DNA of 20,108 bases, taken from positions 1 through 20,108 of the forward strand of contig CALATC010000175.1 in NCBI GenBank assembly GCA_937891475.1, in the 5' to 3' direction. The translations under genes and the position numbers were made by a program. The notes below the pieces were generated by a model that did no database searches, was not told the origin of the DNA, and saw nothing but the letters and a program-made list of their open reading frames with translations. Below are positions 1-19,094 of this stretch, in pieces. This DNA is from an uncultured Granulicatella sp. (GTDB taxonomy: Bacteria; Bacillota; Bacilli; Lactobacillales; Aerococcaceae). The stretch's first letter is position 1, and each line of letters begins with the position of its first letter.

Positions 1-97
1 CTAAAATTCGAGCCTCGGTCTCGAATTTTCCTTCCACTAGTAACCATCTCCATGGTTACTAGTGGGCTTGTTATTATAATCAGTATTTTCTCTTTAT
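1..97 (-). repeat. Structured repeat element copy A (long form, cut by window edge)
   Basis: Minus-strand copy of the window's repeat family; its second half lies outside the window. Reading the minus strand, it has a terminal AGAAAATACT segment, a perfect 14-bp hairpin (CCACTAGTAACCAT pairing with its complement at about 33-64, loop of 4), the AAGGA segment, and the AAATTCGAG / CTCGAATTT hairpin. The terminal segment near 82-97 matches copies B and C. It lies after element B in the transcription direction of the sensor kinase operon. Confidence 0.75.
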
Positions 98-138
98 TCA
101 CTTGGTCAATTCTAAGGAAATAATGGGCTAAACAAAAT

Positions 139-269
139 GAGAAAATACTTCTCAATATAGTAACAAAGGACGGTAGCAGACTTGCCTTACAAGTCTCATA
201 CCTAAAATTCGAGCCTTAGTCTCGAATTTCCCTTACTATCGTACTTGTTACTATGGAAAGTATTTTCTC
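139..269 (-). repeat. Structured repeat element copy B (medium form)
   Basis: About 131 bp with perfect 12-bp inverted ends, GAGAAAATACTT at 139-150 and its complement at 258-269, followed inward by TAGTAACA pairing with TGTTACTA. Inside it holds the AAATTCGAG / CTCGAATTT hairpin and the GGTA...TACC helix that encloses a GACTTG / CAAGTC hairpin, then the conserved CGTCC. It lacks the extra variable hairpin seen in copies A, D, H, K and L. It begins 21 nt after the sensor kinase stop codon. Confidence 0.85.
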
Positions 270-290
270 TTTATCAACTATATCATTCGC

Positions 291-1967
291 CTAATTAGAA
301 ATAGGAATCGTTAAGTATACTTTTGTATAAGAATTTTCTACTGAATCAAATTCCATTTTAAACTCTTCTCCAAAATATAATGCTAATCGTTCTTTTACAT
401 TTTGAATTCCAACTCCACCTAATGCTTTATTGGAAGTACCTTGTTTCTTTAATCCTACTCCATTATCTTCAATCGTAATTTTAATAGAAGGAGATTGGTA
501 TCGAACCGTCAATTGTATTTTTCCTGGACGATTAATTTCCTTAATACCATGATAAATAGCATTTTCTACTAATGGTTGAAGTACTAATTTAGGTAATAAA
601 ATATCTGGAATATTTTCATCCACTTGAATCTCATAAGATAACTTTTCTTCATATCGTTGTTGCTGAATATACAAATATTGTCTTACATGATCCACTTCTT
701 TTGTAAGAGGGATTAAATCTTCTCCTCCATTTAAAGCTAATCTAAAATATGTTGCGAGTGCTTTAGTAATAGACACAACTCGATTAGTATCTTGGAACTC
801 CGCCATCCAAATAATGGTATCCAATGTATTATAAAGAAAATGTGGATTAATTTGACTCGATAAAGCCTTTAACTCATAAACTCTTGCCAATTGCTCCTGC
901 TCTCTAGCTTCCATCATTAATTGTTCTAAGTGATTTAGCATATGATTAAAATGATGCGCTAATTGTTGAAATTCACTAGCACCATTTGGAATCGCTCGTA
1001 AATCAGTTTTCCCTTTTTCAACTTCCTGCATGGTCTCTTCCAAGTGTTGAATTGGAGATAAATGATGTCTCAAAATAATAACCATTCCAATTGAACAACC
1101 AATAAAACTTAAAATCGCAATACTAAAAACAATCATAAATAATTGCTTCGATAATTGTTCCAACTGTGAAAAAGTACTAACTCCTACTAATACCCAATTA
1201 CAATTATCAATAGAAGTTTTGTGTACAAAAAAGTTTTTCCCAATCATAGAATCCATTGGACTTTTAGCAATATCTTCTGCGGACATTTGCTTATCAACAG
1301 ATTGAAAAACTTCATTATCAGGATGATAAATGATTTTTCCCTCTGTATTAATCACAAACGCATATCCTTCCCGACCAAGAGAAAGTTCCTTAATATAATT
1401 TTCAAGAGCGTGAGAATCGATATCAAATCGAACGACTCCTAAACTTTCCTTTGTTTTTGATAAAATTTCTTGACTAATAGATAACACATATTTATCATTT
1501 TGCAAGCGACTTGGTAATAATACCGGGTTGTGAGATAAGTCAATCGCTTGTTGATACCATTCTTGCATCATTAATTCATTCGAATTGGCAGATTGAAGAT
1601 TTTGATCACTTGAAATGATTCTTCCATCTTTTGTTACAACCGTCATTGAAACAAAGTGTTCATTACTTTTCACAAAGGTCTCTAACCAATTTCGAATACT
1701 TATTTGCGAATTATTTTCTTGTCCTTGGGCAAATTGAACAACTTCTGACTCATTAACAATAGCGTTAACTGTATACTTTAATTGAGAGACATACTGTTCA
1801 ATATAACGAGCACTTGTATCAATTCTAGCGGTTGTTTGCCCGGATACGTTCTCTTTAAATAATTCACTACTTTTCCAATAAAAGACACTTCCAACAAGAA
1901 TTAAAATCAAAAATAGCATTCCCAATAAATAGGTAGTTAATTTGATAAACAAGGAATTTTTCTTCAT
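291..1967 (-). CDS. YesM-type sensor histidine kinase of a two-component system
   Basis: Membrane sensor kinase that should phosphorylate the response regulator encoded just upstream. The 558-residue protein has a transmembrane segment at about 8-30, an extracellular sensor region at about 31-275 that looks like a Cache-type domain, a second transmembrane segment at about 276-299 and a HAMP-like linker. The His_kinase (PF06580) motif INPHFLYN places the phospho-accepting histidine at H376. ATPase motifs are VENA (467-470), DNGVGL (501-506) and GGVG (517-520). The start is an ATG with GGGAG 7 nt upstream and overlaps the regulator stop by 4 nt, so translation is coupled. The order with ccdA-etrx-msrAB resembles the pneumococcal TCS09 (ZmpR/ZmpS) locus, from family knowledge. 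The stimulus is unknown; redox or cell-surface stress is an inference from context. Confidence 0.93.
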   Translation of the reverse strand: MKKNSLFIKLTTYLLGMLFLILILVGSVFYWKSSELFKENVSGQTTARIDTSARYIEQYVSQLKYTVNAIVNESEVVQFAQGQENNSQISIRNWLETFVKSNEHFVSMTVVTKDGRIISSDQNLQSANSNELMMQEWYQQAIDLSHNPVLLPSRLQNDKYVLSISQEILSKTKESLGVVRFDIDSHALENYIKELSLGREGYAFVINTEGKIIYHPDNEVFQSVDKQMSAEDIAKSPMDSMIGKNFFVHKTSIDNCNWVLVGVSTFSQLEQLSKQLFMIVFSIAILSFIGCSIGMVIILRHHLSPIQHLEETMQEVEKGKTDLRAIPNGASEFQQLAHHFNHMLNHLEQLMMEAREQEQLARVYELKALSSQINPHFLYNTLDTIIWMAEFQDTNRVVSITKALATYFRLALNGGEDLIPLTKEVDHVRQYLYIQQQRYEEKLSYEIQVDENIPDILLPKLVLQPLVENAIYHGIKEINRPGKIQLTVRYQSPSIKITIEDNGVGLKKQGTSNKALGGVGIQNVKERLALYFGEEFKMEFDSVENSYTKVYLTIPISN

Positions 1968-2698
1968 GATTCTACTCCCTTTTGAAATTGTTTGGGTGTA
2001 ACGCCGACAATTTGTTTAAATCGAACTGAAAAATAATTCACATCTTCCATTCCTACTGCTAAAGCTACTTCATAAATTTTCATGGATGTAGATAATAGTA
2101 GTACTTTTGCTTTATTCATTCGTTGAGTAATGACATAATCTTGAAATGTCATTCCTAGCTTTTTCTTAATTAAGACACTGACATAATTAGGAGTAAAGCC
2201 TAATTGTTCTGCTACTTTTACAAGAGACAGGTCAGGATTATCTAATTGACTATGAATAAGTTTTTCAATTTCTGTTTCTTCTGAAACGATATCTACTTGG
2301 TGAATTTGGTTTTCTTTTCGTTCTTTTTCTAATTTACCAACGACTGTGACAAAAAAGGCTTCAATTTCTTTTTTAGAAATAGGTTTTAGTAAATAATCGT
2401 CTGCTCCTAATTTTAATGCAGATAATAGGTAATCAACGTAATCATATCCTGTTAGAAATACGATATGTGTATGTGGATAGTGTAATTTAACTTGTTGAGC
2501 TAGTGTAATGCCGTCCATTTGTGGCATATTGATATCTGTTAGTATGATGTCGGGTTGTTGATGTTGAATCATTTCCCAAGCTTGTTTGCCATTTTCAGCT
2601 TCTTTTACATCTGAAATTCCCAATTGTTTGTAATCTATTAGTGAAGTTAGTCCTCTTCTAACAAGAGATTCATCTTCGACAATTAACAGTGAATACAT
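1964..2698 (-). CDS. YesN-type response regulator (receiver plus AraC DNA-binding domain)
   Basis: Transcription factor partnered with the overlapping sensor kinase. Residues 1-120 form a receiver domain with acidic residues in VEDE (7-10), phospho-acceptor D55 in LTDINMPQMDG, T83 and K105. Residues of about 140-244 form an AraC-family double helix-turn-helix (LSLVKVAEQLGF then MKIYEVALAVGM). The chosen start, reading MYSLLIVEDE, has GGAGGG 6 nt upstream; an in-frame ATG 21 bases further upstream precedes that ribosome site and is less likely. It overlaps the kinase gene by 4 nt. It follows msrAB in the same direction, separated by repeats C and D. Its targets are unknown; in pneumococcus the related pair controls a surface zinc metalloprotease. 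Confidence 0.93.
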   Translation of the reverse strand: MYSLLIVEDESLVRRGLTSLIDYKQLGISDVKEAENGKQAWEMIQHQQPDIILTDINMPQMDGITLAQQVKLHYPHTHIVFLTGYDYVDYLLSALKLGADDYLLKPISKKEIEAFFVTVVGKLEKERKENQIHQVDIVSEETEIEKLIHSQLDNPDLSLVKVAEQLGFTPNYVSVLIKKKLGMTFQDYVITQRMNKAKVLLLSTSMKIYEVALAVGMEDVNYFSVRFKQIVGVTPKQFQKGVES

Positions 2699-2758
2699 TC
2701 TCATCCCTCCTATTTCCATTATACTCCGCCTTTTTCAAAAAATTAACCGAAAGTATGC

Positions 2759-2884
2759 ATAAAGAGAAAATACTTCACTTTATAGTAACAAAGGACGGTA
2801 TCAGCCTTGCTTTGCAAGTCTCATACCTAAAATTCGAGCCTCGGTCTCGAATTTTCCTTACTATGGGAAGTATTTTCTCTTTAT
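2759..2884 (-). repeat. Structured repeat element copy C (medium form, 18-bp perfect terminal inverted repeat)
   Basis: 126 bp bounded by a perfect 18-bp inverted repeat (2759-2776 and 2867-2884). Internal parts, read on the minus strand: ATAGTAAGGA, hairpin AAATTCGAG / CTCGAATTT, then GGTAT...ATACC enclosing an ACTTG / CAAGG hairpin, then CGTCCTT. AAGGA and TCCTT can also pair. It stands head-to-head with copy D in the msrAB to response-regulator gap and ends about 60 nt before the regulator start. Confidence 0.9.
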
Positions 2885-2922
2885 TCATTACGTCCATTCA
2901 TTTATATGACTCACAACTCGAA

Positions 2923-3059
2923 AAAACTTGCCATAGTAGCATTAGTCCAATAAGCCAAAGATGGCTTATTGGACAGGAAAATTTGAGACCCTAGGCTCAA
3001 ATTTTAGGCATGAAACCAAAGGTTTGCTGCCGTCCTCCTGCTACTATAGCTAAAGTTTT
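2923..3059 (+). repeat. Structured repeat element copy D (long form)
   Basis: About 137 bp with ends AAAACTT / AAGTTTT and CATAGTAGCA / TGCTACTAT. It carries a perfect 13-bp hairpin (GTCCAATAAGCCA, loop AAGA), then the AAATTTGAG / CTCAAATTT hairpin, then GGCA...TGCC enclosing AAACC AAA GGTTT. Its right end lies 14 nt after the msrAB stop codon. On the transcribed minus strand its far end runs into TTTTTT, as in an intrinsic terminator. Confidence 0.9.
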
Positions 3060-3073
3060 ATTCATAAAATTTA

Positions 3074-4189
3074 TTATTTAACAAAATCAACCAAAAATCC
3101 ATAGCCTTTTTCTTCCATATCTGCTAACGGAATAAAACGAATAGCGGCACTATTAATGCAGAAACGTAATCCACCTTTGTCTCGAGGGCCATCATCAAAC
3201 ACGTGTCCTAAATGAGAATTAGCAATACGACTACGAACTTCAATTCGTTTCATATTAAAACTTGTATCTTCCTTATAAGTCACTACTTCTGAAGAAATAG
3301 GCTTTGTAAAACTTGGCCAACCACAACCAGAATCAAATTTATCTTTTGAAGAGAAAAGTGGTTCTCCAGTTGCTACGTCCACATAAATACCTGCTTCATG
3401 ATTATCCCAATATTCATTAGAAAAAGCCATCTCTGTACGATTTTCTCTCGTAACTGCATATTGTTCTTTTGTCAAAGTTTTTTTCAATGTTTCATCATCT
3501 GGTAATGGGAATAAACTAGGATCAATCACTGGATCATTTGCTTTATTCACATCAATATGACAATAGCCGTTTGGATGTTTCTTTAAATAATCTTGATGGT
3601 AATCTTCTGCAACGACGAAGTTTCTAAGATTTTCTCTTTCAATTGCTACCTTTTTCCCTAATTGTTCTTCTTTTTCTGCTACTACTTGTTCAACAATTTC
3701 TTTATCTTCATCATTTTGATAATAAATTCCTGTTCGATATTGACGACCTACATCATTTCCTTGTTTATTGACTGATAGTGGATCAATCACTCTAAAGTAA
3801 TATAATAAAATTTCTCGAAGAGATACGACTTTTGCATCATAAGTAATTTTCACTGTTTCTGCATGATCTGTATCATGAATTAATTGATAGTTTGTTGTTT
3901 CTACTTTCCCATTTGCATACCCACTTACTGCATCTTCTACTCCATTAATTCTTGAGAAATATTCTTCTAAGCCCCAGAAACAGCCACCTGCTAAATAGAT
4001 TTCTTTCATCTCTTTTTCCCCCTTATTTTCTGATTTGTTAACCTCTTGTTGATTAATTAATGAACTAACCTTCTTCTCAATTGGATTTCCATTCGCCTGA
4101 ACTGTTGCTGTTGAAGGATGAATGACATAATATGAAGCAATCAGCAATACAATTAACGCTACGACTCCAATCAATATTTTTTTATCCAT
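3074..4189 (-). CDS. msrAB: Membrane-anchored peptide methionine sulfoxide reductase MsrA-MsrB fusion
   Basis: Reduces both S- and R-methionine sulfoxide in oxidised proteins, here on the outer face of the membrane. From the chosen ATG (MDKKILIG, ribosome site GGAG 8 nt upstream; an in-frame GTG three codons earlier overlaps that site) the protein is 371 residues: membrane anchor at about 5-23, MsrA domain with GGCFWG and catalytic C70, and MsrB domain from about 240 with SGCGWPSF (C289) and [11 protein letters not shown] (catalytic C344). The two CxxC zinc pairs of many MsrB proteins are absent, so this is a zinc-free form. It lies in the ccdA-etrx-msrAB order, and Etrx is the likely reductant. 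It is flanked on both sides by head-to-head pairs of structured repeats. Confidence 0.96.
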
Positions 4190-4208
4190 TTTACCCACTC
4201 CTTATATT

Positions 4209-4328
4209 GAGAAAATACTTCTACATATAGTAACAAAGGACGGTAGCAGCCTTGCTCTTGCAAGTCTCATACCTAAAATTCGAGCCTAGGTCTCGAATTT
4301 TCCTTACTATAATTAGTATTCTTTTCTC
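4209..4328 (-). repeat. Structured repeat element copy E (medium form)
   Basis: About 120 bp, very similar to copy C. The ends GAGAAAATACT and AGTATT-CTT-TTCTC are complementary apart from a 3-nt insertion. It contains the AAATTCGAG hairpin, the GGTA...TACC helix around ACTTG CAAGAG CAAGG, and CGTCCTT. On the transcribed minus strand it ends about 19 nt before the msrAB start, directly next to that gene's ribosome site, so its folding could affect msrAB translation. Confidence 0.87.
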
Positions 4329-4360
4329 TAGGTTCTCTCATATATGATTCACAACCCGAA

Positions 4361-4433
4361 AAGACTTGCCATAGTAGCATTAACATGAAACAGAAGGTTT
4401 GCTGCCGTCCTCTGCTACTATAGCTTAAGTCTT
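4361..4433 (+). repeat. Structured repeat element copy F (short form)
   Basis: A 73-bp short version lacking both the variable hairpin and the GAG / CTC hairpin. The ends AAGACTT / AAGTCTT and CATAGTAGCA / TGCTACTATAG pair; inside are AAAC / GTTT and the conserved GCTGCCGTCC. The GGCA partner of TGCC is not present, so that helix is lost. It is head-to-head with copy E and begins 13 nt after the etrx stop codon. Confidence 0.82.
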
Positions 4434-4446
4434 ATTCATAAAAACA

Positions 4447-4998
4447 TTACATCTTATCAAGATACTTCTGTATATCCTCATTTGCTAAATGCCCCGGATG
4501 AGCTTGTACTAATTCTCCATTTTGATTAATAAACACAGATGTTGGATATCCAATTACTCCTACTTGTTTAAAGAAATCCGGAGTTTCTGCCATTAATACT
4601 GGTAAATTTTTATAGTCTAAACCTGAAAACCATTCTTTAAAATCTTCTGCTTTTTTCTCACGATTTACACCAGGCGCTACTACACTTAAAATGACTGTAT
4701 CATCTGAATGATTAGCTGCTAAAGAATCTACTTCCGATAATCCTGCTAAACATGTTGGACACCATGAAGCCCAAACTTTGATATACACTTTTTTCCCTTT
4801 ATAATCTGATAAATTGACTGTTTTTCCATCAAACGTTTTAAACGAAGCTTCCACTACTTTTTTAGAACTACTAGTTTCTTTCTTGTCTTTTGATACTGCT
4901 TCATTTGAAGGTTTCGTTGCATCTGCTTGCTTATTTCCCATTGGTTGACACGCTCCTAATAATAAACTAGCTCCAATAAATACATATTTCCATTTCAT
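4447..4998 (-). CDS. etrx: Extracytoplasmic thioredoxin-like lipoprotein (TlpA/ResA type)
   Basis: Thiol-disulfide oxidoreductase on the outer membrane face, expected to carry electrons from CcdA to MsrAB. The 183-residue protein has a lipoprotein signal with lipobox LLGAC and lipidation at C17, a Ser/Lys-rich linker at about 25-50, then a thioredoxin fold with active site WASWCPTC (C80, C83) and a later cis-proline segment GYPTS. The start has GGAG 8 nt upstream, and the gene follows ccdA by 17 nt, implying one transcript. The name follows pneumococcal Etrx by synteny and architecture; it could equally be labelled a generic TlpA-family protein. Confidence 0.92.
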   Translation of the reverse strand: MKWKYVFIGASLLLGACQPMGNKQADATKPSNEAVSKDKKETSSSKKVVEASFKTFDGKTVNLSDYKGKKVYIKVWASWCPTCLAGLSEVDSLAANHSDDTVILSVVAPGVNREKKAEDFKEWFSGLDYKNLPVLMAETPDFFKQVGVIGYPTSVFINQNGELVQAHPGHLANEDIQKYLDKM

Positions 4999-5015
4999 TT
5001 TTCATTCTCCTATCC

Positions 5016-5708
5016 TTATAAAAATAATACTTGTAATTGTTGGATAATAATCCAAACACCCATTGCAATAATAACAATTCCACCAATTTTCTTTAATAAA
5101 AATAATTGTTTCTTCGCAAGATTGAAGGCTTTCATCGCAGCGGTTGAAGCAATCGATAATACTAAAAATGGAATCGATAATCCTAAAATATAAATTCCTA
5201 ATAAAAACATTCCGTAAAAAACACTCGCTTGTTGAGTTGCCACTAATGTTAAGACTGAACTTAAAACAGGACCTACACATGGTGTCCATCCAAAACTAAA
5301 GCTCAATCCTAATAAATAACTACTCCATAATGACTTCTCATTTTTTGTTTCAAATTGTACTGTTTTTTGTTTTTGTAAAGACGTTAATTGAAATACTTCC
5401 ATTTGATGCAATCCTAGTAAAACAATAATAGTTCCTAAAACTAAATGGAAATAAGGATTATACAATAATTGTCCTAACAAACTAGCAGCAAATCCTAATA
5501 CAAAGAAAATTGTTGAAATTCCTGCTACAAATAGAAATGTTCGAACGACTGGTAGCACCGCGACTTCAAATTTTCCAATTTTAATACTGCGATTTCCTCT
5601 TTCACTCATTAATACTCCAAAATAAACCGGAAACAGTGGTAATACACACGGAGAGAAAAATGATAATAATCCCGCAGCAAAAATGCTTCCCCATAATAAA
5701 ATATCCAT
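5016..5708 (-). CDS. ccdA: CcdA cytochrome c biogenesis / DsbD-family thiol electron transporter
   Basis: Polytopic membrane protein of 230 residues that moves reducing equivalents from cytoplasmic thioredoxin to extracytoplasmic thioredoxin-like proteins. About six hydrophobic segments are visible. The redox cysteines are C21 in SPCVLPLFP and C144 in TPCVGPVL, one in each half of the pseudo-symmetric fold, as expected of the family. It is the first gene of the ccdA-etrx-msrAB redox-repair group and, with no cytochrome c genes nearby, probably serves MsrAB through Etrx. The ribosome site is AAGAAGG before the ATG. Confidence 0.95.
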   Translation of the reverse strand: MDILLWGSIFAAGLLSFFSPCVLPLFPVYFGVLMSERGNRSIKIGKFEVAVLPVVRTFLFVAGISTIFFVLGFAASLLGQLLYNPYFHLVLGTIIVLLGLHQMEVFQLTSLQKQKTVQFETKNEKSLWSSYLLGLSFSFGWTPCVGPVLSSVLTLVATQQASVFYGMFLLGIYILGLSIPFLVLSIASTAAMKAFNLAKKQLFLLKKIGGIVIIAMGVWIIIQQLQVLFL

Positions 5709-5740
5709 TTATACACCTTCTTCTTGTAATGTTTGAATTT

Positions 5741-5746
5741 ATTATA
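5741..5746 (-). promoter_or_regulatory. Candidate -10 box for the ccdA operon
   Basis: The minus strand reads TATAAT about 32 nt before the ccdA start, in the only gap between a terminator and this operon. No convincing -35 box is visible at the right distance, so only the -10 is proposed. Confidence 0.35.
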
Positions 5747-5812
5747 ATCATTTGTGTTTAAAGAAAACATAGAATCCCCTACACAAATACATGAATTTAA
5801 TATGATAATAGT

Positions 5813-5843
5813 AAAAAATGAAGTAGGCATTCTACTTCATTTT
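5813..5843 (-). terminator. Rho-independent terminator after the amidohydrolase gene
   Basis: Perfect 12-bp stem AAAATGAAGTAG / CTACTTCATTTT with a 5-nt loop, ending in a T run on the minus strand, 8 nt after the amidohydrolase stop codon. The plus side is also T-rich but has no gene feeding it. Confidence 0.85.
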
Positions 5844-5850
5844 CTTTTTC

Positions 5851-7437: not shown

Positions 7438-7438
7438 A

Positions 7439-8527
7439 TTACAACTCCATTTTAAAATTTAAAAAGGCATCATTATAGTTGGAAATCCATTCTGTTCCAA
7501 GATATTCATAATGCTCTAAACTTTCAATGACTTCTTGTGATGGATAAAATGTTTCATCTGACACCACTTCTTCATCTAATAATTCTTTTGCAGCTTCATT
7601 TGGTGTAGCATATCCTACAAACGCTGCATTTCTAGCTGCATTTTCAGGACGAAGCATAAAGTTAATAAACGCATACGCTCCTTCAATATTTTCCGCATTA
7701 TATGATAACGCAAAGTTATCTGTCCAAACAGCACTTCCATCTTGCGGTAAAATATACTGAACAGCAGGATTCGCTTCTGCTACAGCAGCGGCATCTCCTG
7801 AATAACCAATTCCGATCGGCGCTTCTTCTAATTTCATCATTGTTTTAATTTCTTCATTTAATACAGCACGCACATTTGGATTTAATGATTTAATTTTCAA
7901 TTCTGCTTCTTTTAATTGCGCTGCATCTTTTGAATTGAGTGAGTAACCTAATGATTGCAATGCTAATCCCATTGTTTCACGATTTCCATCTAGTAATAAA
8001 ATTTTATTACGGAATTCACTCTTCCATAAATCATTCCAAGTTGTAATACTTTCTGGATCGATATATTTTGTATTCACCATAATTCCAACAGTCCCCCAGA
8101 AATAAGGAACTGTATATTGATTTCCAGGATCCACTGGACTATTTAATAAAAATGGCGAAATATTTTCTAAACCTTTAATTCTTGAATGATCCAATGGTTG
8201 TAATAAATTCTGATTGACTAATTTTGTAATACTCGATTCACTTGGAAATACGATATCATAACGAGTACCACCTTGTTTTAATTTTGCTTCCATTGCATCA
8301 TTTGAATCGAATGTTTCATAAACCACTTGAATATTTGTTTCTGCTTCAAATTCTTTAATCAAATCTGGGTCAATATAATTTCCCCAGTTAAATAAATAGA
8401 GCTGCTGTTTTTCACTAGAAGCAGATTCATCTGCCGAAATTTCTTGCGATTGAATATATTTTTTTACTCCTAATAGTAAAAGTACAACGACTAAAATCGA
8501 TAAAATTAAAGACACTAATTTTTTCAT
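7439..8527 (-). CDS. Orphan PotD-like spermidine/putrescine-type substrate-binding protein
   Basis: Extracellular polyamine-type ABC binding protein. From the preferred ATG (MKKLVSLIL, GAGG 6 nt upstream) it is 362 residues; an ATG four codons earlier is possible. It has an N-terminal membrane segment at about 4-23 without a lipobox cysteine, so it may stay as an uncleaved anchor, then YLFNWGNYIDP, the ETFDSNDAMEAKL segment and PYFWGTVGI, all closely parallel to the PotD at 14037-15107. No ABC permease or ATPase gene accompanies it. It is coupled to an amidohydrolase gene. It may share PotABC or deliver a related substrate; specificity cannot be read from sequence. Confidence 0.88.
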   Translation of the reverse strand: MKKLVSLILSILVVVLLLLGVKKYIQSQEISADESASSEKQQLYLFNWGNYIDPDLIKEFEAETNIQVVYETFDSNDAMEAKLKQGGTRYDIVFPSESSITKLVNQNLLQPLDHSRIKGLENISPFLLNSPVDPGNQYTVPYFWGTVGIMVNTKYIDPESITTWNDLWKSEFRNKILLLDGNRETMGLALQSLGYSLNSKDAAQLKEAELKIKSLNPNVRAVLNEEIKTMMKLEEAPIGIGYSGDAAAVAEANPAVQYILPQDGSAVWTDNFALSYNAENIEGAYAFINFMLRPENAARNAAFVGYATPNEAAKELLDEEVVSDETFYPSQEVIESLEHYEYLGTEWISNYNDAFLNFKMEL

Positions 8528-8567
8528 GAAAAACCTCATTTCTCTCTTGTTATTTTACAATAAGTTG

Positions 8568-8693: not shown

Positions 8694-10673
8694 TTATACC
8701 CATTCTCCATTAGCATTTACTTTGTATCCATCTGGGGTTGTCGTATTTACTAATAATTCTCCTGAATCATTCACATAATACCATTTACCATCAACTTCAA
8801 ACCACTGAGAAGCTTTCATTGCTCCTGATGATTCTAAATAGTACCATTTATCATGATCTAGCAACCATCCGGTTTCCATCGCTCCTGAACCATTTAGGAA
8901 GTACCATTCACCTTTATCTTTAATCCACCATTTTTGCATATAACCACTTTGATCTAAGTAATACCAAGTTCCATCTTGATTGAACCATCCAGTAACTTTT
9001 TCATCTCCTCTATACATCACCCACTGATTATTTTCTTGAATCCAACCACCAATTGTAAGTTTTGTATCAGCTGTTACTTCTTTTAAGCTAGAAATATCGA
9101 TAAAGTTTCCAGTTAATGGAGTTTTATTTTCAATCGCTTTTTCCATTTTTTCTTCAGTGGCTTTCATAATCTTGAAGACTGTTTCAGCTACTTTCATTGA
9201 TTTTGCAGTATAACTATCAGCCGTTGCTCGAACATATTCATTTGACTGATTACGATATTGGTTAATTAATTTTGTTTGATAAGTGAATAAAACTTCCTCT
9301 AATTCTTCCCAATTTGATTTAATCGTTTTACCAAATAAATCTTTATGTTCTGTTACCATCTTATCAATATGGTCTGCAACCCAATACCATGAATCAGGAT
9401 TATATTTACTTCCTCTTACTTGGTAAGCTTTAAAAGTATCTTTAATGTGCCCAAAATATGGAACGTATGGAGTGTTACGTGAACGACTTAAGCCAAACCA
9501 CATAATTCCTCCTAATTCACTAGGTAAATCTTGACGAATTTGATACACATGGGGGTCAATAACATTTTCATTACCTGGTGCATATTTATATTTTGCTTGT
9601 TCTGCTTCTGGTAAAGCCTTAATATTATCTTTTGGAGTATAGTCATTATAAAAATCATATCCTGGAACTTCATCATCTGGAATAAATCCTTCAGATAATG
9701 TTTCAAAACGATTTCTTTGAATTTTAATGGCATCTGCTACTGTATAATCTCTACGTGGAGTGTCTTGTAAAAATTCATAATATTCATCTTGATAAGTAAC
9801 TGATGATTGAGGATTTAATAATTTAATACCAGCATATTGTCTTGAACGATTACGTTCATCTAACTTAGGCGCATAACTTGCTGCTAAATGAAATTTTCCA
9901 TTCACTTCTTTATAAGAGCCAGCTTTTTTAGCTGTTTCGATGATACCTTTTGAAGCAATAACATTATTTGTATCTGATAAATTCAATGCACCAAGGAAAT
10001 AAGTGTTTGGCATAATAGAGAATTTATCATCTGGATATTTATACGCAACATATTGATGTCCAGAATAAATTTCCATATACCATAACTCATTTTTATCTGC
10101 AATCATAATATTATTTCCTTCAGCAGATCCTTTTTCATCAATGACTTTTGCTAAAAGTTCTACCCCTTCACGTGCGGTTTTTACACGTGGTAAAATTAAT
10201 GTTGTCATAGCTGCTTCTGCAATTCCATCTTTAACAAGTGGATCTACTTCTAGAACATCTTCTCTTGGAGTTGTTGTTAATGTAGCTGTTAAAGAAACCC
10301 CATATTCATTGAATCCATGTTCATCAAAAATTCCTTCATCTGTATCTCTAGAATCATCTGCTACAGAAGTATATTTAAATTCATGACGTAAATGAGGATA
10401 AGTGAATCCTGTAGACACATCTTCTAACATTGCTCCTTCTGCATAATCTTTTGCAGGATTTACAATGAAATTCTTATTATGTGTATGTTGTCCTGGTGTA
10501 GTTCCATCACCTTGCTTATATGGATAATCTTCCGTACGACCATATAAAATGGAACCGTCTTTCGTTAATCCTTTTCCAATAATAAAACCTGAACACGCTT
10601 CTACAGATTGTAATGATAATACTGTACCAATAATAACGCTTGACAATAATAGTTTTGTAATTTTTTTATCCAT
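8694..10673 (-). CDS. pepD: Secreted C69-family dipeptidase with C-terminal cell-wall (choline-type) binding repeats
   Basis: Ntn-type cysteine peptidase of the C69 family fused to a surface-attachment tail; 659 residues, longer than intracellular PepD (about 470). Residues 1-26 are a signal peptide ending SVEA, directly before C27 in ACSGFIIG. In this family that cysteine becomes the N-terminal nucleophile, so secretion processing may itself activate the enzyme. The C69 domain runs to about 480, with GRTEDYPY following. From about 540 to the end are roughly five repeats of the W-x(n)-WYY type (GWFNQDGTWYYLD, GWLLDHDKWYYLE and similar), as in CW_binding_1 proteins that hold choline-bearing teichoic acid or glucans. 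The ribosome site is AAAGGAG 8 nt before ATG. It is a single-gene unit with its own promoter, cre site and terminator. Confidence 0.93.
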   Translation of the reverse strand: MDKKITKLLLSSVIIGTVLSLQSVEACSGFIIGKGLTKDGSILYGRTEDYPYKQGDGTTPGQHTHNKNFIVNPAKDYAEGAMLEDVSTGFTYPHLRHEFKYTSVADDSRDTDEGIFDEHGFNEYGVSLTATLTTTPREDVLEVDPLVKDGIAEAAMTTLILPRVKTAREGVELLAKVIDEKGSAEGNNIMIADKNELWYMEIYSGHQYVAYKYPDDKFSIMPNTYFLGALNLSDTNNVIASKGIIETAKKAGSYKEVNGKFHLAASYAPKLDERNRSRQYAGIKLLNPQSSVTYQDEYYEFLQDTPRRDYTVADAIKIQRNRFETLSEGFIPDDEVPGYDFYNDYTPKDNIKALPEAEQAKYKYAPGNENVIDPHVYQIRQDLPSELGGIMWFGLSRSRNTPYVPYFGHIKDTFKAYQVRGSKYNPDSWYWVADHIDKMVTEHKDLFGKTIKSNWEELEEVLFTYQTKLINQYRNQSNEYVRATADSYTAKSMKVAETVFKIMKATEEKMEKAIENKTPLTGNFIDISSLKEVTADTKLTIGGWIQENNQWVMYRGDEKVTGWFNQDGTWYYLDQSGYMQKWWIKDKGEWYFLNGSGAMETGWLLDHDKWYYLESSGAMKASQWFEVDGKWYYVNDSGELLVNTTTPDGYKVNANGEWV

Positions 10674-10838: not shown

Positions 10839-10880
10839 AAAAAACATCCGTTTAAGTAGATTACAACTTAAACGGATGTT
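10839..10880 (-). terminator. Rho-independent terminator after the hypothetical gene
   Basis: Perfect 15-bp stem AACATCCGTTTAAGT with its complement, 8-nt loop, followed by six T on the minus strand. It separates the hypothetical gene from the pepD promoter. Confidence 0.92.
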
Positions 10881-10926
10881 TCATCAAGAACTAGTTTAGT
10901 AAGAAAAAATGTCACATCTATCTAAA

Positions 10927-11457: not shown

Positions 11458-11484
11458 AACATGACTCCTTTATATTCATATAAT

Positions 11485-11556
11485 TCAGTAAAGTGAGAAT
11501 TCAATCCAATTAGATAATTTTATCCGCCTAAATACACTTTCTATAAAAAAACACAT
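11485..11556 (-). CDS. Possible 23-codon small ORF in the leader of the hypothetical gene
   Basis: ATG with AAAGGTGGG 4 nt upstream, reading MCFFIESVFRRIKLSNWIEF and three more residues before TGA, ending 27 nt before the start of the downstream gene. It could be a leader peptide or chance; the residue mix (hydrophobic then basic) is not diagnostic. Confidence 0.2.
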   Translation of the reverse strand: MCFFIESVFRRIKLSNWIEFSLY

Positions 11557-11626
11557 CCATCCCACCTTTCCTATTAACGATTTAGGATAGAATAAAAAAT
11601 AAAATTGTGAAATAGTTCTCAATGTG

Positions 11627-11655
11627 ATTTTATCAATCCTTTTACTGAATTTCAA
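11627..11655 (-). promoter_or_regulatory. Candidate promoter of the hypothetical gene
   Basis: TTGAAA (11650-11655), 17-nt spacer, TAAAAT (11627-11632) on the minus strand, just after the argS-side terminator region. It implies a leader of about 160 nt before the gene. Confidence 0.5.
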
Positions 11656-11676
11656 CTGAACTTTCTTCTATAAAAC

Positions 11677-11712
11677 AAAAAAACTCCCACTTGCCAGGTA
11701 AACAAGTGAGAG
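11677..11712 (-). terminator. Rho-independent terminator of argS
   Basis: Stem CTCTCACTTG pairing with CAAGTGGGAG (one mismatch), 9-nt loop, then seven T on the minus strand, beginning 10 nt after the argS stop codon. Confidence 0.92.
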
Positions 11713-11721
11713 ATAGGATGG

Positions 11722-13413: not shown

Positions 13414-13447
13414 CTTGACACTCCTTCTTTTTATATAAATGATAAAT

Positions 13448-13690
13448 AAAAAAGCCCCTAATCAAGCAACCTTGACTAGAGACGAGATAACCCGTGGTAC
13501 CACTCTTATTGTTTAAAATCTTAAACCACTTTAAACTTTTTTAACGGTAAGCGACCGGATTACTCTACTACATTCGAATAATCATTTCCAAAGTGCGGTT
13601 CATTTACTTCATCATGACCGGCTTCCACCAACCCAGCTCGCTAAAACAGATATCCGTAAACTACTCTCTTCTTCATAAATGTTTATTATT
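13448..13690 (-). promoter_or_regulatory. T-box riboswitch leader of argS (arginine type)
   Basis: The minus strand carries the T-box core AGAGTGGTACCACGG (13493-13507), an antiterminator/terminator region and a terminator stem CTAGTCAAG / CTTGATTAG ending in a T run (13448-13482). Stem I features are AAGAGAGTAG near 13660-13670 and the GAGCTGGG...GGTGGAAGCC distal part. The likely specifier is CGC (Arg) in TGAACCGCACTTTGGA at 13595-13597, matching the downstream gene. The specifier call rests on the familiar flanks GAA-C-codon-ACTTTGGA and is less certain than the T-box itself. Confidence 0.93.
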
Positions 13691-13699
13691 TATAGGACG

Positions 13700-13728
13700 A
13701 TTATAACAAGCGATAGAATATTTGTCTA
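13700..13728 (-). promoter_or_regulatory. argS promoter
   Basis: TAGACA (13723-13728), 17-nt spacer, perfect TATAAT (13700-13705) on the minus strand, just before the T-box leader. Confidence 0.82.
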
Positions 13729-13768
13729 GTAATTTTATAATAAACTTTATAACGCAAATAAAAGAAAA

Positions 13769-13841
13769 AGACTTTGCATAGTAGCAAGAGACTTGCTTTG
13801 CAAGGCTGCTGGCGTCCTAATACTACTATCACACAAAGTCT
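13769..13841 (+). repeat. Structured repeat element copy G (short form)
   Basis: 73 bp with ends AGACTTTG / CAAAGTCT and ATAGTAG / CTACTAT, inner hairpin ACTTG CTTTG CAAGG and conserved GCTGGCGTCC. The variable and GAG / CTC hairpins are absent. On the minus strand the closing stem runs straight into TTTTTCTTTT, so with copy H it is the only terminator-like structure after the potABCD operon. Confidence 0.85.
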
Positions 13842-13883
13842 AACTCATAAACGCACTCTCATAAATAACCGCTCAATAAGAAA

Positions 13884-14024
13884 AGACTTTGCATAGTAGT
13901 ATGAGTAATAAAATCTGAGAAGACAGATTTTATTACAGGAAATTTCGAGACCTGAGGCTCGAAATCTAATAATGAGACAGTAAAGCTGTTTGCTGCCGTC
14001 CCCTATTACTATATAGCAAAGTCT
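13884..14024 (+). repeat. Structured repeat element copy H (long form)
   Basis: 141 bp with perfect ends AGACTTTGC / GCAAAGTCT, then ATAGTAGT / ATTACTAT. It carries a perfect 12-bp hairpin TAATAAAATCTG (loop AGAAGA), the TTTCGAG / CTCGAAA hairpin, an ACAG / CTGT hairpin and GCTGCCGTCC. The four-base helix partner of TGCC is not evident here. It begins 12 nt after the potD stop codon. Confidence 0.88.
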
Positions 14025-14036
14025 AATTCGCAATCA

Positions 14037-15107
14037 TCAGTTGCGGAAAATCTTAGCCTCCAAGAACAAGTCATTATACAACCCTAATAACTCAGAACCT
14101 AGATTCTCATACACTTCCATATGTTCCATTTGCTCATCCGAAGGATAAAAAGTCTCATTACTTGTTACTTCTTCCGGCAATAACTCTAACGCATCTTTAT
14201 TCGGAGTAGAATATCCAACATATTCCGCATTTTGAGCAGCCACATCCGGTCTCAATAAAAACGAAATAAAACGATACGCACCATCATAATTTTTAGCAGT
14301 TTTCGGAATCACAATATTATCAAACCATAAGTTCGTTCCCTCTTCCGGTAAAACATACGCTAAATCTTCATTTTTCTCCAACATCTTCGCAGCTTCCCCA
14401 GAGAATGATACCCCAATCGAAGCTTCCTCTTGTGCCATATACGTCTTCATCTCATCCGCAATAATCGCTTTAGCATTTGGCATCAATGTTTTCAAAAATT
14501 TACCTGCTTCTTTCACAACCTCAGGATCCTTTTCATTCAAAGAATACCCTTGCGTTTGAAGCGCAATTCCCATCATTTCTCTAGCACCATCGATAAATAA
14601 AATTGAATCTTTATAGTCCTCTTTCCATAAATCAGACCACTTCGTAATTTCGCCTTCAGCAATATTTTTTGTATTATAAATAATTCCTAAAGTTCCCCAG
14701 AAATAAGGAATACTATAACGGTTATTTGGATCAAAACTCTTATTCAAGAATTTCTCATCTAAATGTTCCATTCCTTCAATTTTAGAATAATCTAATGGTA
14801 CTAATAAATCTTCTTTTAACATTTTATGAATCGCATATTCACTTGGAATTGCCACATCATAATTTGTTCCACCTTGTTTAATTTTTGTATACATCGCTTC
14901 ATTTGAATCAAATGTTTCATAAATGACTTTATAGCCAGTCTCTTCTTCAAACTGAGTAATTAAATTAGGATCAATATAGTCTCCCCAGTTGTATACAATA
15001 ATTGTATCAGGATTTCCTGCAATAGCTGTTTCAAAATTTTTTCTAAAAAGTAATAATCCAAAACTTGCGACTAAAATTGCCCCAACAAACATCATTAATC
15101 GCTTCAT
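14037..15107 (-). CDS. potD: Spermidine/putrescine ABC transporter substrate-binding protein
   Basis: Captures polyamines outside the membrane for PotABC. The 356-residue protein has an N-terminal membrane segment at about 4-22 with no lipobox cysteine, then the PotD signature stretches VYNWGDYIDP, ETFDSNEAMYTKIKQGG, PSEYAIHKM, PYFWGTLGI and LWFDNIVIPK, highly like streptococcal PotD. It is the last gene of potR-potABCD, and its ATG overlaps the potC stop by 4 nt. No ordinary terminator follows; structured repeats H and G occupy that place. Confidence 0.96.
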   Translation of the reverse strand: MKRLMMFVGAILVASFGLLLFRKNFETAIAGNPDTIIVYNWGDYIDPNLITQFEEETGYKVIYETFDSNEAMYTKIKQGGTNYDVAIPSEYAIHKMLKEDLLVPLDYSKIEGMEHLDEKFLNKSFDPNNRYSIPYFWGTLGIIYNTKNIAEGEITKWSDLWKEDYKDSILFIDGAREMMGIALQTQGYSLNEKDPEVVKEAGKFLKTLMPNAKAIIADEMKTYMAQEEASIGVSFSGEAAKMLEKNEDLAYVLPEEGTNLWFDNIVIPKTAKNYDGAYRFISFLLRPDVAAQNAEYVGYSTPNKDALELLPEEVTSNETFYPSDEQMEHMEVYENLGSELLGLYNDLFLEAKIFRN

Positions 15108-15940
15108 CGGATTACCCCCTTCGCTAAATCATTTTCAATATTTTTCTGATTTAATCGTTTTGCTTGGTATTGTTGAATGAAATAATATCCAATAACTAAA
15201 ATTAATGAGAATAAGAACATTAATGTACTTAAAGCATTAATTTGTAAACTAATTCCTTGACGAGCTCTTGAATAAATTTCAACCGCAATTGTAGAGAATC
15301 CATTTCCTGTTACGAAGAAAGTTACTGCAAAATCGTCTAATGAATACGTAAATGCCATAAAGAATCCACTTAAAATTCCAGGTGTAATGGATGGTAAAAT
15401 AATACGTGTTAATACTTGAGAACTTGTTGCCCCTAAATCTCGTGCTGCTGTAATCATTGAACGATTCATTTCTGTTAATTTTGGTAAAACCATTAAAACA
15501 ACAATCGGAATATTAAACGCAATATGAGAAAGTAGTACTGACCAAAATCCTAATTTGAATCCAATAAATGTAAATAAAATTAATAAACTTGCCCCGATAA
15601 TAACGTCTGGTGAAACTAATAAAATATTATTCATTCCAAGAACAAATTGTTTTCTTCTATTTGAACGAATAAAGTCAATCATAATCGCACCAAGTGTTCC
15701 AATAATCGTTGCACATAGCGCTGATAATAAGGCTAAAATTAAAGTATCAATGACAATACCAATCAATCTTGTATCTCCAAGAACAGCTTTATAATGCTCT
15801 AAAGTAAAAGATTGGAAATCATTCATTCCTCCACCACTATTAAATGAATAATAAATCAAATAGAAAATAGGAGCATACAATACTGCAAATACAAATACTA
15901 AATAAGCATTTGATAACCAATGATTTTTCTCTAATTTCAT
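15104..15940 (-). CDS. potC: Spermidine/putrescine ABC transporter permease PotC
   Basis: One of two membrane subunits of the polyamine importer; 278 residues with about six membrane spans. The EAA loop that docks with the ATPase reads TAARDLGATSSQVLTRIILP near residues 160-180. The start ATG shares one base with the potB stop (TAATG) and has GGAGGAG upstream. The 3' end overlaps potD by 4 nt. Confidence 0.96.
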   Translation of the reverse strand: MKLEKNHWLSNAYLVFVFAVLYAPIFYLIYYSFNSGGGMNDFQSFTLEHYKAVLGDTRLIGIVIDTLILALLSALCATIIGTLGAIMIDFIRSNRRKQFVLGMNNILLVSPDVIIGASLLILFTFIGFKLGFWSVLLSHIAFNIPIVVLMVLPKLTEMNRSMITAARDLGATSSQVLTRIILPSITPGILSGFFMAFTYSLDDFAVTFFVTGNGFSTIAVEIYSRARQGISLQINALSTLMFLFSLILVIGYYFIQQYQAKRLNQKNIENDLAKGVIR

Positions 15941-16749
15941 TATGCTTCTCCTCCTTTTCTACGATCACGTGTTACAAACATTAAGACAATCATCGCTACA
16001 ATTAAGACAACCCCAATAGTTGAACCCATTCCCCAGTTTTGCGTTACTAAGAAATGTTGCTCTACGGCAGTCCCTAATGTAATCACACGATTTCCTCCAA
16101 TTAAACGAGTTAACATGAATAGTGATAGTGATGGAATAAATACTGCTTGAACACCACTTCTTACACCACTCATCGTTAATGGAATCACGACATTTTTTAA
16201 AGTTTGCCAAGGAGTAGCACCAAGGTCACGGCTTGCTGCAATTAATGAACTTGGTAATTCTTGTACTGCATTAAAAATCGGTAAAATCATAAATGGTAAT
16301 TCAATATAAGCTGCTACCGTTAAGAAACTAAAATCCGTAAATAAAAATTCTTTTGGAGCAATTCCAAATAATGATAAGAATTGATTTACTGTACCTGTTT
16401 GGCTAAAAATACCAATAAATGCATAAGCTTTTAATAATAAATTCACCCATGTTGGCAAAATGATTAATAATAACCATAAATTTTTATGCTTTGTTTTACT
16501 TAAAAAGTAAGCTGTTGGATAACTCACAACTAAAGTCACTAATGTTACTAAAAAGGCATACCATACTGAGTTAAATGTCATTTCTAAATAATTACCAGAA
16601 GTAAAATAATTCGTATAGTTTCCAATCGTTAATTGATTATTAATATCGAAAAATGATTTATAGAAAATCATTGCCAAAGGCGCTACTACAAATAATGCCA
16701 ACCATAAAAGATATGGAATGGAAAAAAACATACGAGAATTTTTACTCAT
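15940..16749 (-). CDS. potB: Spermidine/putrescine ABC transporter permease PotB
   Basis: Partner membrane subunit of PotC; 269 residues, about six spans, EAA loop [20 protein letters not shown] near residues 170-190. GGAGG precedes the ATG, which overlaps the potA stop by 8 nt. The tight overlaps through potABCD imply coupled translation and balanced subunit supply. Confidence 0.96.
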
Positions 16750-17851
16750 TACTATCGTCCTCCACTTCCTCGTAGCTTTCTAGACGTGCATCAAATTCTT
16801 CTTCACTTTCTCCAAAACGCATTACGTGAATATCTTGTGGCTCAAAGTATAATCCAACTTTTGATCCCACTTCTGCTTTCTTCGTTGAGTGAATCATCCA
16901 CTCATTTTTATTTTCGTCATAACAAATAATTTCATAGTGAACTCCACGGAATAATTGTGTATCCACTTCAACGGTTAATTTCCCTTTATCTACACTAGTT
17001 AGAGATAAATCTTCCGGACGAATAACGATTTCAACCTTTTCATTTGGACGCATACCAGCATCGGCACATTCAAATTCTTTTCCAACAAATTCTACTAAGT
17101 AGTCTTCTTTCATCACACCAGCAACGATATTACTTTCACCAATAAAGTCCGCAACGAAACGGTTGATTGGTTCATCATAAATATCTACAGGAGTACCTGA
17201 TTGAATAATTTCTCCACCATTTAGTACGAAGATTTCATCACTCATCGCAAGAGCTTCTTCTTGGTCATGAGTTACGAAAATAAATGTAATACCTAAACGT
17301 TGTTGTAATTCACGCAATTCATACTGCATATCTGTTCTTAATTTTAAGTCTAGCGCTGATAATGGTTCATCTAATAATAGAACCTCTGGTTCATTCACTA
17401 ATGCACGAGCAATTGCTACACGTTGTTGTTGTCCTCCAGACATTTGAACGATTTCACGTTTTTCATAGCCAGATAATTGAACTAATTTTAATGCTTCAGA
17501 AACTTTTTGTTTGATTACATCTTCTGGTAATTTTTTCAAACGTAACCCGAATGCAATGTTTTCAAACACATTCATATGAGGGAATAATGCGTAGTCTTGG
17601 AATACAGTATTTACTTTACGTTTATTTGGTGGTAAATCAGTAACATCTTCTCCATTTAAAGTAACAGAACCAGTTGTTGCATCAGTAAAACCAGCAATGA
17701 TACGAAGAATCGTAGTTTTACCACATCCTGAAGGTCCTAATAATGTATAGAATTTTCCTTTTTCAATTTCAAAGTTAATATTTTTTAATACTTGAGTATC
17801 ATCATAAGATTTTGTAACATTTTCAAATGTAATAATTGCATTGTTGGACAT
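16742..17851 (-). CDS. potA: Spermidine/putrescine ABC transporter ATP-binding protein
   Basis: ATPase that powers the importer. From ATG ([12 protein letters not shown]) it is 369 residues. Visible motifs are Walker A GPSGCGKT (39-46), Q-loop [10 protein letters not shown], signature MSGGQQQR, Walker B VLLLDEP with D161/E162, and the H-loop THDQEEAL, followed by a C-terminal TOBE-type regulatory region from about 240. An upstream extension in frame would overlap potR and lacks a good ribosome site, although the AAGGAAGG before the chosen ATG is rather far away and a TTG four codons upstream cannot be excluded. It follows potR by 22 nt. Confidence 0.95.
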
Positions 17852-17873
17852 GTTTCGTACCAATCCTTCCTTT

Positions 17874-18416
17874 TTATAAATAAGAATTTGTTGCGACAAT
17901 TAACACCTTACTTATTTCATTGCCAGCATTTTTAATTTGATGTTTAGCAGAAGCTTCAAAATAAAAAGATTCTCCTTTTGAGACAACTTCTATTTGTTTT
18001 CCTACTTTTACTTGTACTTTACCTTCTAGAACATATCCAAAAGTTTCGGATAATGATGGTTGGAACACTTTGTATTCCCCTTGAGGTTTAAACTCTAATA
18101 TTACAGGTTCCATTTCATGTTCATTCGAATCTGGATTTAACCAAGTCACTATCGTTTTATGCTTTGGATCCTCCATCACGGTCATATCTTCAGGCCCATA
18201 AACGGTTAAAGCTTCTTCTGGTCCATCTTCAAAGAAATCTTTTGGAGCACATCCTAATACTTCTAAAATATCAAAAAATGTGTCCATCGATGGCGAACTT
18301 AGATCGTTTTCTAATTGGGAAATATATCCTTTAGATAAATCCGTCCTCTCGGCTAATTCTTCTTGGGTAAGTCCTTTTTGAACACGCAGAGCTTTCAAAT
18401 GACTCCCTATTTCCAT
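17874..18416 (-). CDS. potR: XRE-cupin transcriptional regulator of the pot operon
   Basis: DNA-binding regulator, probably sensing polyamine through its cupin domain. It has an N-terminal helix-turn-helix at about 6-60 ([21 protein letters not shown]) and a C-terminal cupin_2 barrel at about 105-178 ([13 protein letters not shown], then [17 protein letters not shown]). Two adjacent ATG codons are possible; the second is chosen because GGAGG is 6 nt before it and only 3 nt before the first. It is the first gene of the pot operon, next to a palindrome in its own leader, which points to autoregulation. The name potR is by context; PuuR-like would also fit. Confidence 0.9.
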
Positions 18417-18432
18417 CATATCCCTCCATTCT

Positions 18433-18449
18433 TTAAACTTAAAGTTTAA
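18433..18449. promoter_or_regulatory. Palindromic operator candidate for PotR
   Basis: Perfect 17-bp palindrome TTAAACTT-A-AAGTTTAA between the predicted transcription start and the potR ribosome site. A further AAGTTTA half-site lies in the promoter spacer (18475-18481). This is the arrangement expected for repression by an XRE dimer. Confidence 0.65.
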
Positions 18450-18463
18450 TCACACTATGACTC

Positions 18464-18491
18464 ATTATACTCTAAGTTTAGTAATAGTCAA
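18464..18491 (-). promoter_or_regulatory. potR-potABCD promoter
   Basis: TTGACT (18486-18491), 16-nt spacer, perfect TATAAT (18464-18469) on the minus strand, about 45 nt before potR. Confidence 0.85.
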
Positions 18492-18505
18492 CAAATAAAT
18501 TACAC

Positions 18506-18543
18506 AAAATAAAAAAAAGAACCCTATACAATGTATAGAGTTC
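18506..18543 (-). terminator. Rho-independent terminator after the repeat array
   Basis: Stem GAAC and CTATAC pairing with GTATAG and GTTC around a 3-nt loop (one internal mismatch), followed by eight T on the minus strand. It ends transcription from the fructokinase side after the four repeats I-L, which would therefore be transcribed as one long 3' region. Confidence 0.85.
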
Positions 18544-18559
18544 AAATGAATAGATATAG

Positions 18560-18640
18560 AAAATGATCATGCATAGTAACACTAAAGCCATGAAACTAAA
18601 GGTTTGCTGGCGTCCTCTTCAACTATTAAAAAGTCAATTT
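18560..18640 (+). repeat. Structured repeat element copy I (short, degenerate)
   Basis: Short form of about 80 bp. The ends AAAATGA and TCAATTTT are imperfectly complementary and ATAGT pairs with ACTAT. Inside are GCCA...TGGC enclosing AAAC / GTTT and the conserved GCTGGCGTCC. First member, by coordinate, of a four-copy same-direction array. Confidence 0.7.
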
Positions 18641-18680
18641 TATTAACGTGCTTTCATATTAGTTCCGTTCAAATAGAAAA

Positions 18681-18755
18681 GACTTCTCACAGTGCAGCTA
18701 TAAGATTCGCATTTGCAAAGCTGCTAGCGTCCAATATGCTACATTCAGCGAAGTC
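18681..18755 (+). repeat. Structured repeat element copy J (short form)
   Basis: About 75 bp with ends GACTTC / GAAGTC, inner helix GCTA...TAGC and conserved GCTAGCGTCC. The second end helix (AGTAGCA in other copies) is damaged here (AGTGCA). The GCTA/TAGC pair is a fourth sequence version of the same helix. Confidence 0.72.
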
Positions 18756-18786
18756 AATTATCATTAACGTACCCTAAAATAGAAAC

Positions 18787-18916
18787 GACTCCTTACAGTA
18801 GCATTGGTAATATAAGCCACTTTGGCTTATATTACTGGAAAAATCAAGACCTAGGCTTGATTTTTAGGTATGAGACCGCAGGGCTGCTGCCGTCCATCGC
18901 TACAGTATAAGAAGTC
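18787..18916 (+). repeat. Structured repeat element copy K (long form)
   Basis: About 130 bp: ends GACT / AGTC and GTAGC / GCTAC, variable hairpin GGTAATATAAGCCA / TGGCTTATATTACT, AAATCAAG / CTTGATTT hairpin, GGTA...TGCC helix with one G-U pair, conserved CTGCCGTCC. The AAG / CTT pairing replaces GAG / CTC of other copies. Confidence 0.85.
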
Positions 18917-18960
18917 AGACTTATTAACGTACCCTAATATTATTTCCGTTCAGAAAGAAA

Positions 18961-19094
18961 TGACTTTTTCATAGTAGCACTATTAATATAAGCCAAGTAT
19001 GGCTTATATTAAAGGGAAATTCGAGACCTTAGGCTCGAATTTTAGCCATGAAACCGAAGGTTTGCTGGCGTCCCATGCTACTATAAAAAAGTCA
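18961..19094 (+). repeat. Structured repeat element copy L (long form)
   Basis: About 134 bp with 19-bp terminal inverted repeats (TGACTTTTTCATAGTAGCA against its complement, one mismatch). It carries the TTAATATAAGCCA / TGGCTTATATTAA hairpin, the AAATTCGAG / CTCGAATTT hairpin, GCCA...TGGC enclosing AAACC GAA GGTTT, and CTGGCGTCC. It begins 15 nt after the fructokinase stop codon. Confidence 0.9.

Follow-up and report, generated by a model that had tools for sequence, protein, structure and literature searches.

In this study, we followed up twelve structured elements in a 20,108-nt stretch of DNA from an uncultured Granulicatella sp. (contig CALATC010000175.1; "the window" below is this whole stretch) and show that they belong to a repeat family with at least 134 copies in a related complete chromosome, G011, and with members in most of the Streptococcus genomes that we scanned. 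The kind of repeat is known, the family new: it does not match a BOX consensus, is built differently from SPRITE, scores below the threshold of Rfam family RF02616 and is not tracked by the REP/RAYT enzyme. Copies lie mostly just past the ends of genes, the usual place of transcription stop signals in bacteria. Their stems look constrained as DNA, and some gene ends orthologous between two species appear to carry the repeat in one and a plain hairpin in the other. On balance, we favour the interpretation that the element is a non-autonomous, modular, palindromic DNA repeat resembling BOX and EFAR, which occupies the sites of terminators, seldom spreads and undergoes homogenisation among its copies.

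A modular repeat in the window and in a related chromosome

Each element has an outer stem (P1) around an optional variable hairpin (P2), an optional GAGACC-NN-GGCTC hairpin (P3) and then P4, which consists of a four-base stem, a conserved internal loop (TGA/TGC) and a small hairpin and has GTCC after it; P4 bears a CTGCCGTCC-like motif. P1 is typically AAAAGACTT..CATAGTAGCA, its left side A-rich and its right side T-rich. Variants of the four-base stem in the alignment of window copies include GGCA/TGCC, GCCA/TGGC and GGTA/TACC, and the unpaired P4 letters are strongly conserved. The common layout of end stem, optional hairpins and P4 motif had been proposed in an earlier, sequence-only reading of the window, which was right in this respect; compensatory stem changes are detectable from the window copies alone.

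A covariance model, R1, was built from an alignment of 11 window copies (all but copy A), which match it by construction. G011, a complete 1.74 Mb chromosome of the genus Granulicatella, is collinear with the window at 1,725,204-1,742,588, with about 92-95% identity across the longest aligned blocks and less in some others. Run on G011 and the window, R1 gave 172 matches at E 0.01 or better, of which the best 150 were aligned and resolved into 146 distinct copies (window, 12; G011, 134). The latter number is a lower bound, the 22 unaligned matches being the weakest and partly lying on the opposite strand of copies already counted. These at least 134 copies give independent support for the window family; copy A, which was left out of the model, also matches it. 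A sequence profile added 14 partial pieces of the family.

All twelve window copies of the sequence-only reading were recovered by R1 with coordinates within a few bases. Their orientations required correction: A, B, C and E are reverse and D and F to L forward, C/D and E/F being inverted pairs and I to L a direct array in which the spacers are alike too. The description of twelve copies in 20 kb as very dense holds locally; the G011 average is about one per 13 kb, with six copies in the stretch collinear with the window. That all copies lie between genes was confirmed, in that none is inside a credible gene and C and D overlap only a mechanically called open reading frame (ORF) with a GTG start (2689-2994). 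The copies are as follows.

1..97, reverse: copy A; P1 end, P2 and P3, with P4 and the second P1 arm past the window edge; R1 39 bits at 1-89, 3' end cut off by the edge
139..272, reverse: copy B; P1-P3-P4; R1 107.2 bits at 143-266; the G011 orthologue has an additional P2 hairpin
2757..2886, reverse: copy C; P1-P3-P4; inverted partner of D; R1 102.7 bits at 2768-2876
2921..3061, forward: copy D; full form, P1-P2-P3-P4; R1 103.8 bits; sub-threshold RF02616 match, 39.2 bits at 2971-3034
4207..4330, reverse: copy E; P1-P3-P4; inverted partner of F; R1 101.1 bits at 4213-4322
4359..4435, forward: copy F; short form, P1-P4; R1 60.8 bits
13766..13844, forward: copy G; short form; R1 37.7 bits; P1-P2-P3-P4 at the orthologous G011 site
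13881..14026, forward: copy H; full form; R1 81.7 bits
18560..18641, forward: copy I; short form; R1 53.9 bits at 18561-18640; a decayed form at the G011 site
18677..18759, forward: copy J; short form; R1 36.5 bits; copy and spacer absent at the G011 site
18783..18920, forward: copy K; full form; R1 94.7 bits; conserved in G011 with paired P4 changes
18958..19098, forward: copy L; full form; R1 101.7 bits; absent at the G011 site

Copies lie at the 3' ends of genes

Using ORFs from a home-made caller (1541 ORFs, 88% of the G011 chromosome), we found 126 of the 134 G011 copies outside ORFs at their midpoint (83 tandem, 41 convergent and 2 divergent); the other eight lie within called, putative ORFs. 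Counting gaps of at least 60 nt, convergent gaps make up 11.4% of intergenic length and hold 41 of the 126 copies, an enrichment (p 2e-10), while divergent gaps make up 13.4% and hold two, a depletion (p 5e-6). Tandem copies stand at a median of 25 nt past the upstream stop and 182 nt before the next start, and 65 of the 83 carry the motif on the strand opposite to the genes (p 2e-7). A replication-strand bias in orientation was considered and set aside as confounded with gene direction (27 vs 14 in convergent settings, p 0.06).

Stem pairing and the RNA alternative

Across the G011 copies, with a conserved A.G column left out, stem cells comprise 3011 Watson-Crick pairs, 49 G.U, 57 A.C and 124 others, compared with 553, 42, 0 and 0 in a tRNA control (27 of 34 tRNAs, the other seven excluded by a format filter). 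Selection on one RNA strand would favour G.U over A.C, which is not seen overall; since the two are equally rare, the stem constraint looks to be at the level of DNA rather than of one RNA strand.

The main link to RNA comes from Rfam. Nothing in the window reached a gathering threshold except a T-box and a tRNA, and no family did so on the copies, in agreement with the sequence-only reading, which had recognised no named family. That reading missed a sub-threshold similarity to RF02616 (SSRC8_2), whose best window score is 39.2 bits (E 5.6e-8) against a gathering threshold of 72 bits and whose model positions 144-211 align to P3 and P4. Twelve of 14 fetched loci also match RF02616, at 24-56 bits and so below 72, the two non-matching loci coming from the genome G217. 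SSRC8 was detected in S. pyogenes by Northern blot and circular RACE (rapid amplification of cDNA ends), and Table 4 of the same paper lists homologous stretches within SSRC8 nucleotides 142-250 in other streptococci (PMC3675131). These stretches lie near the part that aligns with P3 and P4; in contrast to the present repeat, SSRC8 is described as a single small RNA (sRNA) gene, and the passages of PMC3675131 that were consulted mention no repeat nature. Together, these observations suggest that the Rfam sRNA family contains a fragment of this repeat.

The SSRC8 entry would suggest a different account, in which the family is a structured RNA, either a regulatory sRNA or a cis element, that spread by duplication. 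In support of this are the RF02616 scores in the window and in streptococcal copies, the S. pyogenes experiments, the conservation of unpaired P4 letters, the recurrence of one gene setting around the copy in many fetched streptococcal loci, and one P3 pair at which G.U is far above A.C. It is opposed by the overall parity of G.U and A.C, by copies in both orientations relative to genes and by scores that stay under the Rfam threshold, and we consider it improbable. The sequence-only reading had left the choice between a mobile element, a structured RNA or both. The pairing pattern, the occurrence in both orientations and the location past stop codons speak for a DNA-level element at terminator sites rather than a dedicated RNA, and an RNA role is kept as a possibility beside it.

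Turnover between relatives

The repeat is old at most placeable sites and changes by exchange of modules and arrays, with rare movement. Among copies placeable by both flanks, 28 of 30 in a second, related Granulicatella genome, G012, have a G011 copy, and 21 of 30 G011 copies have a G012 copy. Modules differ at orthologous sites, G being short in the window and full in G011 and B lacking the P2 present in G011. G011 lacks the E/F pair at its orthologous site and G012 has an E/F-like pair, and J and L are each present in a single species.

Paired changes were counted in 22 orthologous copy pairs, hand-picked and including the window alignments, at least one of which (L188:7116 vs 1728012) is doubtful. 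The G012 column pairs used in the count were verified. Of the 594 stem cells in these copy pairs, 74 are gapped; the remaining 520 comprise 407 unchanged, 51 with a change on one side, 50 with changes on both sides that stayed Watson-Crick and 12 with two-sided changes that did not. Thus 50 of 113 changed pairs are compensated, and two-sided changes number 62 where 14.7 are expected if the sides are independent. Exchange between copies is a likely cause of these paired arm changes.

Could the elements be nothing but host terminators, immobile, duplicated with neighbouring DNA and converted against one another? The sharing of most placeable sites between G011 and G012 and the tandem arrays with conserved spacers would fit such an account. 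Two observations stand against it: E/F, J and L, like some copies at further orthologous ends, occur in one species only, and a Streptococcus locus whose flanks have no match in G011 carries a copy 87% identical to a G011 one. We regard the account as quite improbable. The Streptococcus copy (L245:1501-1640, in the Streptococcus-genus genome G102) is a possible case of horizontal transfer.

Repeats and plain hairpins at orthologous gene ends

We compared 536 orthologous gene ends between G011 and part of G012, scoring copies no more than 60 nt from the stop: both species carry one at 24 ends, G011 alone at seven, G012 alone at six and neither at 499. Seven of the 13 discordant ends were set aside as remnants, arrays or copies that the scoring range missed (8709, 17568, which is doubtful, 539263, 775494, 1259298, 1471873 and 1577779). 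At four of the six ends judged informative (236922, 392625, 508672 and 563820), a plain hairpin of 10-18 bp stands in the species that lacks the repeat, the background rate being 157 of 990 gene ends with copies within 100 nt excluded; end 182976 has a two-part hairpin that the criterion missed and end 1729275 has none. This is suggestive of a repeat in one species and a plain terminator-like hairpin in the other at some orthologous gene ends. Inverted repeats of at least 8 nt outside P1 occur at 29 of 133 copies, compared with about 1.6 in shuffles, although some arms are common to sister copies and the independent number is below 29. Several read A-tract, stem, T-tract, as intrinsic terminators do.

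A classical miniature inverted-repeat transposable element (MITE), that is, an insertion-sequence derivative shortened by deletion, which the transposase of that insertion sequence moves in trans via the terminal inverted repeats and which is tolerated at gene ends, would share with this family its terminal inverted repeats, high copy number, intergenic bias and differing occupancy between species. It would be expected to leave an excess of target-site duplications, which we did not see in a test limited by old copies and uncertain ends, and hairpins at several unoccupied sites also count against it. We think this origin unlikely.

In the mechanism that we favour, the repeat would take over terminator hairpins and would then itself serve as a terminator, often a two-sided one. 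Its rare spread would proceed via a trans-acting enzyme acting on folded DNA, and module exchange by ectopic conversion would keep copies alike and palindromic, possibly together with hairpin-templated correction. A bolder version, which we advance only tentatively, is that the family represents genus-wide transposable transcription terminators: folded DNA that replaces or occupies intrinsic terminators, whose stems are perfected by hairpin-templated or inter-copy correction and which collapses back to plain hairpins.

Several observations weigh against the favoured interpretation. We infer the terminator role from position and shape, and the asymmetry of T-tracts between orientations is weak (p 0.09). 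No mobilising enzyme was identified, parental insertion sequences not having been searched systematically, and most placeable sites are common to G011 and G012, so movement must be slow. The value for direct repeats in the flanks is 3.61 against 3.59 after shuffling (133 copies, with uncertain ends and most copies old), giving no sign of target-site duplication. The informative gene ends were chosen after the sequences had been seen, partly by eye, and the binomial p of 0.007 for four of six becomes 0.015 for four of seven, with 17568 included, and 0.14 for four of all 13 discordant ends. The plain hairpins of ends 182976 and 563820 have arm letters in common with P1, so a repeat may as well have collapsed into a terminator there as have inserted into one. 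The far flank differs too at end 236922, and no fully clean insertion was seen. With respect to pairing, the basal P3 pair is G.U in 17 and A.C in one across the 146 copies, and some double changes are swaps of whole modules rather than point changes, as in P4 at G011 64376 compared with its G012 orthologue. Such swaps do point to exchange between copies as a cause.

Comparison with known repeats

Among titles and abstract openings of openly licensed literature, we found no paper naming this repeat. BOX, of S. pneumoniae and S. suis, is likewise modular and short, with paired ends and enrichment between convergent genes (PMC3049150). The same modularity is present here, with optional P2 and P3 inside P1 and modules gained and lost at orthologous sites; unlike BOX, however, the repeat profile did not match a BOX consensus, in line with the earlier judgement that the element has the style of BOX without its sequence. 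BOX is also reported to be all but missing from species other than S. pneumoniae, S. mitis and S. suis, as part of a description in which small streptococcal repeats are nearly confined to these three species (PMC3049150), whereas the present repeat occurs in 165 of 197 Streptococcus genomes. SPRITE shares AAAA/TTTT ends, a terminator-like form and a position near gene 3' ends, but is described as a single 18 bp duplex with a U-rich tract (PMC3049150), in contrast to a multibranched element with conserved P3 and P4.

REP/RAYT was rejected, since the Y1 transposase (PF01797) does not track the repeat and is absent from repeat-bearing G012. Y1 has two matches in G011, one of them broken, and is also found in the genomes G001, G002 and G014, in which neither copy D nor R1 found the repeat.

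EFAR of Enterococcus faecalis is also a family of modular palindromic repeats built from sequence types. It reportedly uses stem-loop sequences as targets and leaves stem remnants at its ends. We take Efa-1 to be the same element. Efa-1 is described as 163 nt long with 65 copies (PMC2267715). R1, under the same stricter filters as in the Streptococcus scan, found the present repeat in none of 105 Enterococcaceae genomes, among which E. faecalis was not singled out.

Spread across genomes

The sequence-only reading had proposed a covariance search of relatives, and this revealed copies in G011, G012 and most of the Streptococcus genomes scanned. That reading had overlooked the streptococcal spread, as it had the SSRC8 link, the preference for the 3' ends of genes and the apparent exchange with plain hairpins. 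The 165 positive Streptococcus genomes are among 197 sampled from a larger set, and no more than 18 candidates were scored in each. Matches were found in 17 of 18 named streptococci, with, for example, 36 in S. parasanguinis, 25 in S. xiaochunlingii, 24 in S. australis, 20 in S. azizii, five and six in S. pseudopneumoniae, one in each of two S. suis and none in S. cuniculipharyngis. The repeat was found in none of 15 named genomes outside Streptococcus. In the family of G011, three of 76 genomes gave matches (G011, G012 and G217), those of G217 being weak and probably to a different element; five further genomes of G011's genus had no repeat. A phage collection gave three matches to window positions 2700-4480, all at about 3098-3467 inside the msrAB gene, and a plasmid collection gave none to 2700-3075.

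The weak R1 matches of G217 (20, at 31-36 bits) were not counted as members. At loci L277 and L283, they look like a different modular repeat, in which another end stem encloses two P3-like hairpins in tandem (apex AGACCTTGGCT); this suggests that P3 is a module shared between different repeats.

ORFs of equal size and spacing flank the copy at 18 of 30 streptococcal loci (for example L250:1501-1640), and a nineteenth, L259, has a longer second ORF. Pfam, run on L250 only, identified the flanking ORFs as yqeH-like and yhbY-like; this setting is apparently a long-kept position of the repeat within an apparent operon.

Other genes in the window

The collinear G011 site lacks a C69 peptidase gene with choline-binding repeats that the window has at 8694-10673; the gene's best long matches in G011, at about 72-75%, are located elsewhere. 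Two related genes (7439-8539 and 14037-15107) lie near one transporter operon; we take their products to be PotD-like solute-binding proteins and the operon to be of the spermidine/putrescine type. The T-box leader found by Rfam (13475-13685) presumably precedes argS.

Implications

Altogether, this family, found in most scanned Streptococcus genomes and with at least 134 copies in one Granulicatella, contrasts with the reported confinement of small repeats (PMC3049150). It connects mobile repeats with transcription terminators in a way that can be tested. If the bolder version set out above is correct, terminators in streptococci and Granulicatella would turn into mobile repeats and back again. 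Because stem arms change in pairs between close relatives, the family also lends itself to a natural test of how palindromes are kept perfect.

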